Source: Caldifarciminota bacterium
GTDB lineage: Bacteria; Hydrothermota; Tepidihabitantia; SM23-42
DNA length: 41,265 nt
NCBI GenBank assembly: GCA_020355325.1
Contig: CP070664.1
Location: 2,280,296 to 2,321,560, forward strand
Direction: 5' to 3'
In this document: positions 34,725-39,502 of the stretch, in pieces
How positions within the stretch are numbered: position 1 is the first letter of the stretch
How the letters are laid out: each line of letters opens with the position of its first letter
The notes under the pieces: generated by a model
The model's input: the letters and a program-made list of their open reading frames with translations, nothing else
Database searches by the model: none
Told to the model about the DNA's origin: nothing
Made by a program: the position numbers and the translations under genes

Positions 34725-34752
34725 TTGACATCGAAGAAGCGAGCTCTATAAT
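34725..34752 (+). promoter_or_regulatory. Promoter of the alpha-2-macroglobulin gene
   Basis: TTGACA (34725-34730), 16 bp, TATAAT (34747-34752). The leader is about 60 nt with AAGGAGG before the ATG at 34820. Confidence 0.85.
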
Positions 34753-34819: not shown

Positions 34820-37800
34820 ATGACGAGAGTGTTATTCATAAGTCTCATAATCGTATCGCTCGGGCTCGTCTATGGGATTACGTTCTTTGGATCGAGCGAT
34901 GAGTTGAATCTCAATATCCCGATTGAGAATATGAAAGGAATGACTGGTACGTGCCGTGTTGAAGTGTTAGACCCGGAGGATAATATCGTTGGAACTGCTT
35001 ATCGCTTTATCTACATATACAAAGACTACTATTCCCTCCCCATGAATGTGCACCTCAAGAAAAAGGTTGAGGATTATGATCTCCTACGCGTCAGGGTAAC
35101 GTTTAAGAACCTCGAACGTGTATATTCCTTCTATCAACTACAAGACAGAATGGTTGTAAAGATTCTCGGCCAGCGCGAATTTATGCGCGGAACACCGATC
35201 ACCTATCGCGTCATCCTCCGTAATCAGCGGACAAACGAACCACTCGCGGGAGCCAAAGTAAAAATTACCCTCAAGGCAGATAAAGATACGAAGAAAGTGT
35301 TTGAGGGCAGGACTGATGGAACAGGAAGTTGCAATCCGACCTTTCAAATTACCGAGGCAATACATGAAGCCGAGGTTCAATTTGAGGTTACGTCTCACCT
35401 TGGTAAGGATAGCTATAGTACACACATAAAAATTGTGAGTGGTAATCTCACCTATCTCGTTACCGACAAGCCGATCTATCAACCAGGACAGACAATCCAC
35501 ATGCGCACACTCTCACTGCGCAAACCAGATCTCGACGCCATCAAAGGAACAGCCTTAACATTTGAAGTGGAAGACAGTAAAGGCAATAAAATATTCAAGA
35601 AGGTAATTACAACCGATGACTTTGGTACTGGTTATGCTCAATTACTTCTCGCCGATGAGGTTAATTTTGGAAACTACACCATACGGGCAACGCTCGATGG
35701 TGAGAAGATCGAAAAGACCGTAAAGGTCGAACGATATGTGCTCCCTAAGTTCAAGATTGTATTGAAAACAGATAAAGAGTTCTACCTTCCTGGTGAACGT
35801 ATGGATGGAAATATTGATGTCCAATACTTCTTTGGAAAACCGGTTGTGGATGGTAAGGTTAAAATCACAACCCATAAATACGATATCGGTTTCCAAAAAG
35901 AGGCAATGCTTGAGGGGACGACTGATAAAAATGGTATGTATCACTTTGTATACACACTTCCCGATTATTTCGTTGGCGAACCACTCGAAAAGGGCGACGC
36001 ATTCATCCGACTCGACATCGAGGTCATTGATAAAGCAAACCACAGTGAGAAAGTTTCTTTGAAGAAAAAGATCGTTCAGGATGTTATAACGTTGTCCATA
36101 GTCCCTGAGGGAGGTATGCTGAGACCGAATCTCGAGAATCGCATCTACGTCCTCGCACAGTATCCAGATGGTACGCCGTGTGTGGCACAGGTAAAGATCG
36201 ATATCGATGGTAAGAAGATGTTTTCTGAAACCGATGAGTATGGCGTTGCAGAATTTATTTATACGCCAAAAAATGCAGAGACTGAAATTTCGGTGACGGC
36301 AAAAGACAATCGAGGTGAAACAGCGCGTATAACAAAAAATTTCTCGCTCGATATTGAACGCGATCAAATAATCATGAGAATGGCACGCGGCATCTATACC
36401 GTCGGGCAATCCATTGATCTACAATTCCTCACCACGAAGCGGAGCGGCAGGGCATACCTCGACATCATCAGAGATAATCAGACCGTGCTCACGAAATCGA
36501 TTGATATCCAGAATGGCTCGGGTAACTACAGACTGAATCTGACGCCAGATATATCTGGCTCAATCTGGCTTCACGCCTATATCGTAACGCCGGGCAGTAA
36601 TATCGTTCGAGATACTCGGTTCTGTTATGTCCATGCTGCAAACGACCTGTTTATTGATGTAAAGGGTGACAAGAATGAATATATACCGGGCGAAGATGGA
36701 GAAATCATATTTCATGTTACGGACAAAGACGGCAGGCCGAAGGTCGCCGCGCTCTGCGTCGCGATTGTCGATGAGGCAGTCTTTGCTGTTTCTGAATTGC
36801 AGCCGGGATTAGAAAAAGTCTATTTTACGCTGGAAAAGGAGATTTTAGAACCGCGTTATGAGATTCATGGGTTTGAGCCGGAAAAGATCGTGCGAAAACC
36901 TGGTATCAAACCTCGTGCTGAAAATGTCATGTTTTCGACACTCACGCCAAAAGAGCCATTTCCAGTAGACTATACGACACCACAGGAGGTTCATGAGAAG
37001 ATACTACGAACATTCATACAACGACTAACACAGACGAGAGACAAAATACAAAGAGCGATCAACACGTACTATACACGACACAAGCAGTATCCAAAGAGCA
37101 GAGATGGTCTGGAGACGTTAATCGACGAGGGATTCTTGGATGAAAAGGATTTACGTGATCCATGGGCACGAACATATCGGATTGCTACAACTGATGAATA
37201 TTTTTACTGGTTCACCATTGTCTCTGCTGGACCCGACGGCGTCTTTGATAACGAAGACGACATCAATGAGCTGGGATGGCGAGTGTTCAAGGGTGAGATT
37301 ATGGTGGATGAAGCACGCATAGCATTACCGCAGGCTGCAGCTGGAGTCTTAGCACCAGAAAAGGAAGGAGCTCCACGCGATAAGAAGGCGAGACCCGGTG
37401 AGGAACCGCGTATCCGTGAATTTTTTCCCGAGACCTTTATCTTCGAGCCAACACTCATAACCGATGTCAGCGGTCGAGCAAAACTATCTGTCGCCATGCC
37501 TGATGCAATAACAACCTGGCGTGTTACAACATTTGCATCCTCAAAAAACGGAGAATTGGGATCGACCTTATCACAGATTCGCGTATTTCAAGACTTCTTT
37601 GTCGACATAGATTTGCCCATCGCACTAACCGAGGGCGATGAAATATCCATACCGGTTGCAGTATACAATTATCTGCCCAAGGAGCAAGAAATTAAAGTCG
37701 TCTTACAAGCAGAGGAATGGTTTGACATTCTTGAAAAGAGCGAAGTCACAAAGCGACTCAAGAAAGATGAGGTATCGGTCGTCTACTTCCCGATAAAAGT

Positions 37801-39502
37801 GAAAAAGATCGGCTACTACTCAATGCTCGTGAAGGCCTATGGCGAGGTGAAGTCAGATGCAATCAAGCGTATGATCGCAGTACTGCCCGATGGTAAGCGA
37901 TTCGAGGACGTGATCTCTGATCGACTCGAAGGAACCGTAACAAAGAGTGTAACATTTCCGAAGAATACAATACGAGATGCCAATACACTCATATTGAAGA
38001 TATTTCCGGGTATCTATTCACAAGTTGTCGAGGGACTCGACAATCTCCTCCGGGTACCATTTGGCTGCTTTGAACAGACGACATCGGTCACCTATCCGAA
38101 TATACTTATATTGAATTATTTGAGGCAGACAGAACAGGTTAAACCGGAGACCGAGATGACTGCAGAAGAATATATCAGCATTGGGTATCAGCGACTTCTG
38201 TCTTATGAGGTTACAGGTGGTGGTTTTTCCTGGTTTGGTGACGCCCCGGCAAATAAAATCCTCACTGCATATGGGTTGATGGAATTTAATGACATGGCAA
38301 AAGTGTATGAAATTGACGAGCGCATTATTGAGCGGACCGCACAATGGTTGATCAATCAGCAGAACAATGATGGCTCATGGTCTCCAGACGAGCAGTATTT
38401 GCATGCTGAATCCTGGGCTAAAATCCAGAAGAGCGAAATTCTTCCCACTGCCTACATCTGCTGGGCATTAGGTGAAATTGGCGAACGAGGAACGGCTGTC
38501 TCAAAGGGGCTCTCATTCCTCGAGAACAACCTCAAAGCAGTAACCGATCCCTATGTACTGGCCCTCGTTGCCAATGCCTTTATCGCAGTCGAACCAAAGG
38601 GCGAGACGACCGTGGAAGTTCTCAAGAAACTCGTGAGTATGGCAAAAGAAGAAGACGACGCTATCTATTGGGAATCAGATATTCCATCCATCACGTTCTC
38701 GCGGGGCAAGGGTGCAGACATCGAGGCGACAGGGCTTGCTGCCTTCGCCCTCATACAATCTGGTAAATATAGTGATGTTGTTACCAAGACATTGACGTTC
38801 CTCATTCGTTCCAAGAGTGCTGGTGGGATGTGGTATACGACACAGGGAACAATTATTGCCTTACGTTCATTCGTTGCAGCACTCGGTGGCGTAGTAGAAG
38901 ATATTGATGCACGAATTACAATCGTGATGAATAATAAAAGAGTAAAAGAATTGAGTATCAATAAAGAAAATGCAGATTTGATGCATCAGATTGACCTGAC
39001 CGATTATCTCGGCAAAGATAATACCGTTGAAATCAGTGTGAACGGCCAAGGCAGTTTCCTGTACGAACTCACACGTGCATACTACATACCATGGAGAGAC
39101 CTGCCAAAACCAGCGCAGCCAATGTTCACCATCGATGTCGATTACGACCGCACGAAGCTCTCAATCAATGATATTGTTAATGTCGGCGTGTCAATCAAAC
39201 TGAATCGACCCGGGACTGCACAAATGGTGATGGTTGATCTTGGAATACCACCAGGTTTTGAGATTCAAACGCCGACCTTGGATGAGTTGGTTGGTAAAAA
39301 GATTCAAAAGTATACTATTACATCACGTCAGCTCATTATCTATTTAGACGAAGTCACTTCTCGTGTGCCGGTTCAATTATCCTACAGTATCAAGGCAAAG
39401 TATCCAATAAAGGCGCAGGTTCGCGCATCCAGGGTATACGAATACTACAATACATCAGACGAAGGATTGGAAGAACCCTTTGAAATGCAGGTATCACTGT
39501 AG
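34820..39502 (+). CDS. Alpha-2-macroglobulin family protein with inserted pseudopilin-like domain
   Basis: 1560 aa. Signal peptide 1-19; no lipobox Cys is seen. Residues 20-710 are macroglobulin (MG) beta-sandwich domains (GNLTYLVTDKPIYQPGQTIHMR, YVLPKFKIVLKTDKEFYLPG). About 728-816 resemble a type II secretion GspG pseudopilin C-terminal domain (RAINTYYTRHKQYPKSRDGL, LRDPWARTY, SAGPDGVFDNEDDIN), where the protease bait segment normally lies. FFPETFIFEP and then AMPDAITTWRVTTFA open the A2M core. The thioester GCFEQ is intact (C1083, Q1086), followed by the helical thioester domain and a C-terminal MG/receptor-like domain. It traps attacking proteases or binds targets outside the inner membrane. 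No PBP1C gene is adjacent. Its own promoter and terminator flank it. Confidence 0.92.
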   Translation: MTRVLFISLIIVSLGLVYGITFFGSSDELNLNIPIENMKGMTGTCRVEVLDPEDNIVGTAYRFIYIYKDYYSLPMNVHLKKKVEDYDLLRVRVTFKNLERVYSFYQLQDRMVVKILGQREFMRGTPITYRVILRNQRTNEPLAGAKVKITLKADKDTKKVFEGRTDGTGSCNPTFQITEAIHEAEVQFEVTSHLGKDSYSTHIKIVSGNLTYLVTDKPIYQPGQTIHMRTLSLRKPDLDAIKGTALTFEVEDSKGNKIFKKVITTDDFGTGYAQLLLADEVNFGNYTIRATLDGEKIEKTVKVERYVLPKFKIVLKTDKEFYLPGERMDGNIDVQYFFGKPVVDGKVKITTHKYDIGFQKEAMLEGTTDKNGMYHFVYTLPDYFVGEPLEKGDAFIRLDIEVIDKANHSEKVSLKKKIVQDVITLSIVPEGGMLRPNLENRIYVLAQYPDGTPCVAQVKIDIDGKKMFSETDEYGVAEFIYTPKNAETEISVTAKDNRGETARITKNFSLDIERDQIIMRMARGIYTVGQSIDLQFLTTKRSGRAYLDIIRDNQTVLTKSIDIQNGSGNYRLNLTPDISGSIWLHAYIVTPGSNIVRDTRFCYVHAANDLFIDVKGDKNEYIPGEDGEIIFHVTDKDGRPKVAALCVAIVDEAVFAVSELQPGLEKVYFTLEKEILEPRYEIHGFEPEKIVRKPGIKPRAENVMFSTLTPKEPFPVDYTTPQEVHEKILRTFIQRLTQTRDKIQRAINTYYTRHKQYPKSRDGLETLIDEGFLDEKDLRDPWARTYRIATTDEYFYWFTIVSAGPDGVFDNEDDINELGWRVFKGEIMVDEARIALPQAAAGVLAPEKEGAPRDKKARPGEEPRIREFFPETFIFEPTLITDVSGRAKLSVAMPDAITTWRVTTFASSKNGELGSTLSQIRVFQDFFVDIDLPIALTEGDEISIPVAVYNYLPKEQEIKVVLQAEEWFDILEKSEVTKRLKKDEVSVVYFPIKVKKIGYYSMLVKAYGEVKSDAIKRMIAVLPDGKRFEDVISDRLEGTVTKSVTFPKNTIRDANTLILKIFPGIYSQVVEGLDNLLRVPFGCFEQTTSVTYPNILILNYLRQTEQVKPETEMTAEEYISIGYQRLLSYEVTGGGFSWFGDAPANKILTAYGLMEFNDMAKVYEIDERIIERTAQWLINQQNNDGSWSPDEQYLHAESWAKIQKSEILPTAYICWALGEIGERGTAVSKGLSFLENNLKAVTDPYVLALVANAFIAVEPKGETTVEVLKKLVSMAKEEDDAIYWESDIPSITFSRGKGADIEATGLAAFALIQSGKYSDVVTKTLTFLIRSKSAGGMWYTTQGTIIALRSFVAALGGVVEDIDARITIVMNNKRVKELSINKENADLMHQIDLTDYLGKDNTVEISVNGQGSFLYELTRAYYIPWRDLPKPAQPMFTIDVDYDRTKLSINDIVNVGVSIKLNRPGTAQMVMVDLGIPPGFEIQTPTLDELVGKKIQKYTITSRQLIIYLDEVTSRVPVQLSYSIKAKYPIKAQVRASRVYEYYNTSDEGLEEPFEMQVSL

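Follow-up and report, generated by a model that had tools for sequence, protein, structure and literature searches.

What is a pseudopilin-like domain doing inside a protease-trapping protein, and does it take the place of the bait whose cutting sets off the trap? The question is raised by an alpha-2-macroglobulin (A2M) gene in a 41,265-nucleotide stretch of DNA, referred to here as the window, from a Caldifarciminota bacterium (GenBank assembly GCA_020355325.1, contig CP070664.1, positions 2,280,296 to 2,321,560 of the forward strand), whose genome is a single contig of 2.85 Mb. The open reading frame (ORF) at window positions 34820-39502, on the plus strand, encodes a complete thioester A2M of 1560 amino acids (aa), and its named relatives, with 66-76% identity, are found in metagenome-assembled genomes (MAGs) of Candidatus Stahlbacteria and candidate division WOR-3.

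Identity of the module and of its host protein

A first-pass annotation, made from the letters of the sequence, had placed a GspG C-terminal pattern at window positions 37001-37264, and both the position, which corresponds in frame to residues 728-815 of the ORF (about 728-816 as then described), and the family held under profile, sequence and structural searches. Pfam T2SSG (PF08334, cut-off 21 bits) matched residues 741-814 with 29.6 bits (E 7.8e-7) when the whole protein was searched and with 36.9 bits (E 4e-9) on the reported stretch alone, and a whole-genome scan recovered the same match with 34.1 bits. A PDB sequence search with the segment returned GspG proteins first (1t92, E 1.4e-3; 3g20, E 2e-3). 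Furthermore, an AlphaFold model of residues 700-872, built with a six-sequence alignment, predicted two helices, one of them 29 residues long (726-754), together with short strands; the block-mean predicted local distance difference test (pLDDT) was 78-90 over about residues 730-810, and most of the core lay at 84-90. Foldseek against PDB placed 3g20 (GspG of enterohaemorrhagic Escherichia coli, two chains) at the top with probabilities of 1.00 and 0.99, all remaining matches listed being at or below 0.11, while the top five chains of VIA-align were GspG of V. cholerae, V. vulnificus and E. coli, together with PulG (GspG/PulG/EpsG chains; Z 7.3-7.6, root-mean-square deviation 2.8-3.2 over 90-94 residues), followed by type IV pilins. 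A Z of 7.6 is middling by itself, and it was trusted because the top five rows were all GspG/PulG/EpsG and because Foldseek and Pfam concurred.

The module shares its fold, a DPW motif and the SAGPDG...DDI loop with GspG/PulG/EpsG, the major pseudopilin of type II secretion, but it has no prepilin leader or hydrophobic helix and is embedded in an A2M. TIGR01710, the GspG equivalog, scored 14.5-21.1 bits against a cut-off of 88.85; the module therefore belongs to the GspG fold and domain family and is not a secretion-system GspG. Neither a prepilin leader nor a hydrophobic N-terminal helix was found: the residues ahead of the module are conserved polar ones, and the hydrophobicity threshold was not reached in any WOR-3 slot. 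Sequence and predicted structure together identify a headless pseudopilin domain, which has the GspG fold but lacks the membrane-spanning helix of prepilins. Three other explanations of the match were discarded: coincidence, by the agreement of two structural searches with the profile match, the sequence hits and the model and by recurrence in three phyla; an assembly or frame artefact, by the open frame in many independent genomes; and a true secretion GspG fused to an A2M, by the TIGR01710 score and the absent prepilin helix.

As regards the host protein, human CD109 was the best PDB sequence match (E 8.5e-76), followed by A2M (E 6e-68), and E. coli YfhM was distant (E 8e-7). The MG domains, the A2M domain, the thioester domain (TED), the receptor-binding domain, the GC.EQ motif, the YVLP channel motif and the plug are shared with CD109, alpha-2-macroglobulin and A2ML1. 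Plug, channel motif and thioester are all intact by motif reading; the plug is IREFFP (residues 865-870), of the conserved form RxxFFP, and the roles of plug and channel are taken from earlier work (PMC9156758, PMC9352918). Profiles of the bMG type remained below their cut-offs (bMG3, 19.6 of 34.9 bits; bMG10, 15.8 of 26.2 bits), and no C345C domain, the C-terminal domain of complement, was reported by Pfam. The gene product is best described as a thioester A2M of the CD109/A2M-like type, probably secreted. The same genome encodes a second A2M, YfhM-like and 1955 aa long, with no T2SSG match in the whole-genome scan. Upstream of the window gene, at 34725-34752, a TTGACA-16-TATAAT arrangement is a perfect sigma-70-type match (12/12).

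Table 1. Features of the window A2M gene and of its MG6 slot
Feature	Residues	Window position	Strand	Basis
A2M gene	1560 aa	34820..39502	+	Signal-like N-terminus; Pfam MG2, MG3, BRD, A2M, TED and A2M_recep each above cut-off
MG2-MG3 linker YVLPKF	306-311	35735..35752	+	Same as conserved channel motif of animal A2Ms
MG6 first half (MG6-beta)	613-660	36656..36799	+	Profile and alignment
N-flank, LNK-like	661-715	36800..36964	+	Conserved across WOR-3; low pLDDT
Pseudopilin-like (T2SSG/GspG) module	720-816	36977..37267	+	Profile, PDB sequence search, model, structural searches
Calcium-loop-like end of module, SAGPDGVFDNEDDIN	802-816	37223..37267	+	Motif reading; acidic pattern conserved
Hypervariable, probably disordered linker; likely true bait	818-858	37271..37393	+	Low identity, variable length, low pLDDT
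Plug / alpha'NT, EEPRIREFFPETF, leading into MG6 second half	861-873	37400..37438	+	Conservation and motif; plug role from PMC9352918, PMC9156758
Pfam A2M domain (MG6 second half and MG7 start)	872-962	37433..37705	+	88 bits, cut-off 21
Thioester domain (TED)	1066-1350	38015..38869	+	Pfam 177.8 bits
Thioester motif GCFEQ	1082-1086	38063..38077	+	Motif reading
A2M receptor-binding-like (MG8) domain	1466-1548	39215..39463	+	Pfam 51.4 bits, cut-off 21.7

Position of the bait and triggering of the trap

The first-pass annotation had further put the module at the bait position, where the protease-cleavable segment normally lies. The part of this claim that stood is that the module, with its acidic loop pattern, occupies the MG6 slot, the site of the bait in other A2Ms; the part that fell is the replacement of the cleavable segment, since a hypervariable linker (residues 818-858) comes after the module. 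The slot of the window A2M runs from the first half of MG6 through an LNK-like segment, the module, the bait-like linker and the plug to the second half of MG6. In mean pairwise identity across 18 WOR-3 proteins, the linker was by far the most variable part (26%, the other parts measured ranging over 52-76%). MG6-beta reached 73%, the N-flank 75%, the two parts of the module 56% and 54% and the module loop 70%; the plug region was at 76%, and MG6-alpha, MG7 and the thioester domain stood at 75-76%. The module and its acidic loop are constrained, in contrast to the 41 residues that follow. Counted to the plug, the linker measures 45-61 aa across WOR-3, and its pLDDT was below 50 in the AlphaFold models. 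Sequence and models thus give the arrangement of an A2M, a predicted disordered and hypervariable bait within MG6 followed by a conserved plug. The linker is likely to be the bait, and the module therefore stands before it, as the anaphylatoxin stands before the alpha'NT plug in C3; a place beside the bait is more likely than a place instead of it. In the WOR-3 relatives the linker is also peculiar in composition, with Met enriched 4.8-fold, Lys, Ala, Glu and Pro enriched too, Tyr scarce and Cys absent.

In A2M, cleavage breaks the continuity of the bait, the plug retracts from its channel and the channel collapses (Harwood et al., 2022; PMC9352918). The native state becomes less favourable when 10-20 residues are added to the wild-type bait, and engineered A2M is not triggered by a nick within a closed disulfide loop (PMC9352918). 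In this context, the reading that we favour, by a modest measure, is that the module lies between the LNK-like segment and the linker-bait, that triggering would proceed by ordinary linker cleavage, and that the module may serve as a folded guard or as a ligand. A protease would cut the linker after the module, the plug would retract from the MG2-MG3 channel, and the thioester domain would swing out and capture the protease covalently. Meanwhile the module, folded, protease-resistant and probably calcium-stabilised, would remain on the LNK side as a guard, confining cutting to the linker and shielding that side; being folded, it would add about 97 residues with little slack, so that the long insert would stay compact, and its surface may act as a ligand or docking face.

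Several observations weigh against this reading. The structure prediction proposed by the first-pass annotation gave a GspG fold for the insert itself (700-872 model), but a model of residues 515-1030 (predicted template-modelling score 0.35) failed to place the module against the MG domains. Both flanks of the module were poorly predicted, which leaves room for cleavage on the N-side. One WOR-3 module has Asn in place of the first Asp of the loop, a relative (L027) keeps the module with the loop lost, and we infer calcium binding by the window module from its sequence. Moreover, membrane helices fill the same slot in some planctomycete relatives, so that a soluble pilin fold is not required there.

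A calcium-gated bait, in which the module acts as a sensor that is folded and silent to nicks while calcium is bound and unfolds into a cut site on its loss, would make direct use of the acidic loop, whose pattern is retained in 27 of 28 WOR-3 modules and in 37 of 41 others (counted over modules reaching the end of the profile, which itself includes the loop and biases the figure upward). PulG depends on calcium and misfolds near its calcium site without it (PMC6692295), and closed-loop nicks were silent in engineered A2M (PMC9352918). We nevertheless consider this account unlikely, given a separate linker that already looks like a bait, the putative nature of the calcium site and the loop-free module of L027; calcium gating of the trap is possible. 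An equally unlikely use of the module would be as an address, its pilin-like surface keeping the trap close to a pilus or pseudopilus, or to some structure of the envelope, where capture would be of use. Type IV pilus-type ATPases and a short prepilin-like gene occur in the same genome, and planctomycete slots with 2-8 membrane helices, one with a DUF1559 start, suggest anchoring as one use of the slot, but the N-terminal helix, the part of a pilin that makes filament contacts, is missing, and full-length GspG-type matches outside the A2M were not found in this genome and were few in the phylum.

We give less credence still to release of the module by double cleavage as a soluble, anaphylatoxin-like signal: the domain order is that of C3 (PMC9156758) and both flanks are poorly predicted, but the N-flank is 75% identical across WOR-3, unlike a bait, and a processing site and a receptor are both without a known candidate. 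Just as improbable is a neutral passenger with no role of its own in a tolerant slot. The slots of relatives do hold CarboxypepD_reg domains and membrane helices as well; the module, however, retains 54-56% identity, and its loop 70%, among proteins with an overall identity of 63-76%, and members of three phyla carry it.

Guests of the MG6 slot among bacterial A2Ms

The survey of bacterial A2Ms proposed by the first-pass annotation found the module in the same slot in WOR-3, Acidobacteria and Planctomycetes, phyla that were sampled rather than exhaustively counted. Within the family and order of the window organism it was present at the same place in every relative with that part of the gene fully recovered, and stronger T2SSG matches in the phylum fell almost solely in A2M-sized frames. 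In the window's own genome the second T2SSG match fell in a prepilin-like ORF of 114 aa that lacks the calcium loop. Iterating a module profile on the collected loci gave 60 distinct module-bearing A2Ms, with one module each in WOR-3, one (e.g., L137-L140, L150) or three in tandem (L142-L146, L148, L149) in Acidobacteria, and one or two in Planctomycetes (e.g., L037, L079, L151-L154). Wherever slot boundaries were mapped, all modules lay between the MG6 halves and none past the start of MG7. Most loci extend no further than about 1.5 kb to each side of the match, and the statement for the rest of the protein, that modules were seen nowhere outside the MG6 slot, rests on the full-length ORFs read from the three phyla. 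The tandem-module acidobacterial proteins are about 2000 aa long, with a CarboxypepD_reg domain after the modules in L144, and in L141, L142 and L148 at least two large A2M genes lie side by side, each with slot modules.

Nine planctomycete A2Ms (L074, L075, L086-L091, L107) have a long slot in which no module was detected and which contains hydrophobic segments, seen nowhere else in the stretch read. The helices number 2, 4, 6 or 8 in eight of the nine, L074 having one clear segment, and with an even number the two halves of the A2M would lie on the same side of a membrane. In L089 the last slot helix runs into the start of DUF1559, a pilin-type family, above the Pfam cut-off; module and membrane helices never occurred together in one A2M. 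With modules, helices and, in L144, a CarboxypepD_reg domain in it, the slot has therefore received inserted domains repeatedly in this branch, pilin-derived parts being common among them.

In a quick, midpoint-rooted tree of MG7 and thioester domains, a fully supported split set 23 short-slot, module-free sequences, YfhM-like ones included, apart from the remaining 77, and two state changes sufficed to account for module or short slot, gain being indistinguishable from loss. A2Ms of the YfhM/ECAM type are likewise bacterial thioester proteins with the bait in the equivalent MG domain, but their slot is 41-110 aa long without a module, and they occupy a separate part of the tree. The A2Ms seen in a Chloroflexi sample had slots of 41-103 aa and no module, and a tblastn search with the region gave no match in plasmids and phages. 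Metazoan CD109, A2M and A2ML1 have LNK and a short bait in the slot, with no folded module, whereas the window protein adds the pseudopilin domain. The layout matches that of complement: in the MG6 slot of C3, C4 and C5, too, LNK and alpha'NT are separated by a folded domain, after which come a scissile segment and the plug, and the anaphylatoxin (ANA) domain replaces the bait in the same MG6 insert (PMC9156758). The slot domain of C3 is all-helical, in contrast to the alpha/beta pilin fold found here, and Pfam gave no ANA match in the window protein. More tentatively, and with rather less confidence than in the guard reading itself, one large branch of bacterial A2Ms may use the MG6 slot as a socket for parts derived from pilins, whether soluble pseudopilin modules (one to three) or a bundle of membrane helices (two to eight), which would position or gate the trap next to a hypervariable bait distinct from them. 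This would be an independently evolved bacterial parallel to the anaphylatoxin arrangement, perhaps with calcium or contact with a membrane or pilus as its switch. No description of such a module was found in the open-licence papers searched, which does not prove priority.

Thioester codons in relatives and significance of the occupied slot

The window A2M has cysteine at the thioester. In 12 distinct relatives, of which 11 come from planctomycete genomes and the last from a MAG classed as Chloroflexi, the position of this cysteine is taken exactly by an in-frame TGA (G-TGA-F/M-E-Q), with the frame open on both sides (L151 (G273:C225), L152 (G311:C112), L153 (G161:C60), L154 (G187:C107), L155 (G231:C153), L072, L086, L088, L090, L094, L096 and L100); TAA or TAG was never seen at this codon. 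SelB or SelA scored above cut-off in all 12 genomes (SelB in the five tested for it, SelA in the other seven), and tRNA-Sec was detected in nine (67-81 bits). Ten UGA loci were searched with Rfam without a match, hence no known family of selenocysteine insertion sequence (SECIS), and folding energies were used in place of such a match: the 63 nucleotides from the TGA onward were more stably folded than shuffled sequences (mean z -1.83, n=12), as against a mean z of -0.04 in Cys relatives (n=17; one-sided p 0.0016 for the difference). The codon is thus likely to encode selenocysteine, which would make these proteins selenoester traps; none has been described in the open-licence literature searched, although priority is not thereby proven. 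In the MAG filed as Chloroflexi (G147; L036/L072), an A2M fragment carries the planctomycete-like TGA codon, unlike the other sampled Chloroflexi A2Ms, by transfer or as a mixed bin.

How cleavage of the bait triggers alpha-2-macroglobulin and complement, which include the human relatives of this protease-trapping protein, A2M and C3, is still being worked out, and the plug-in-channel model has so far been probed mainly through engineered baits and mutants. A natural family with one folded module, or three in tandem, ahead of the bait offers test material for that model. Here, pilin domains occur in a protein other than a filament subunit, and they provide, as known from sequence and models, a bacterial parallel to the folded slot domain of complement.
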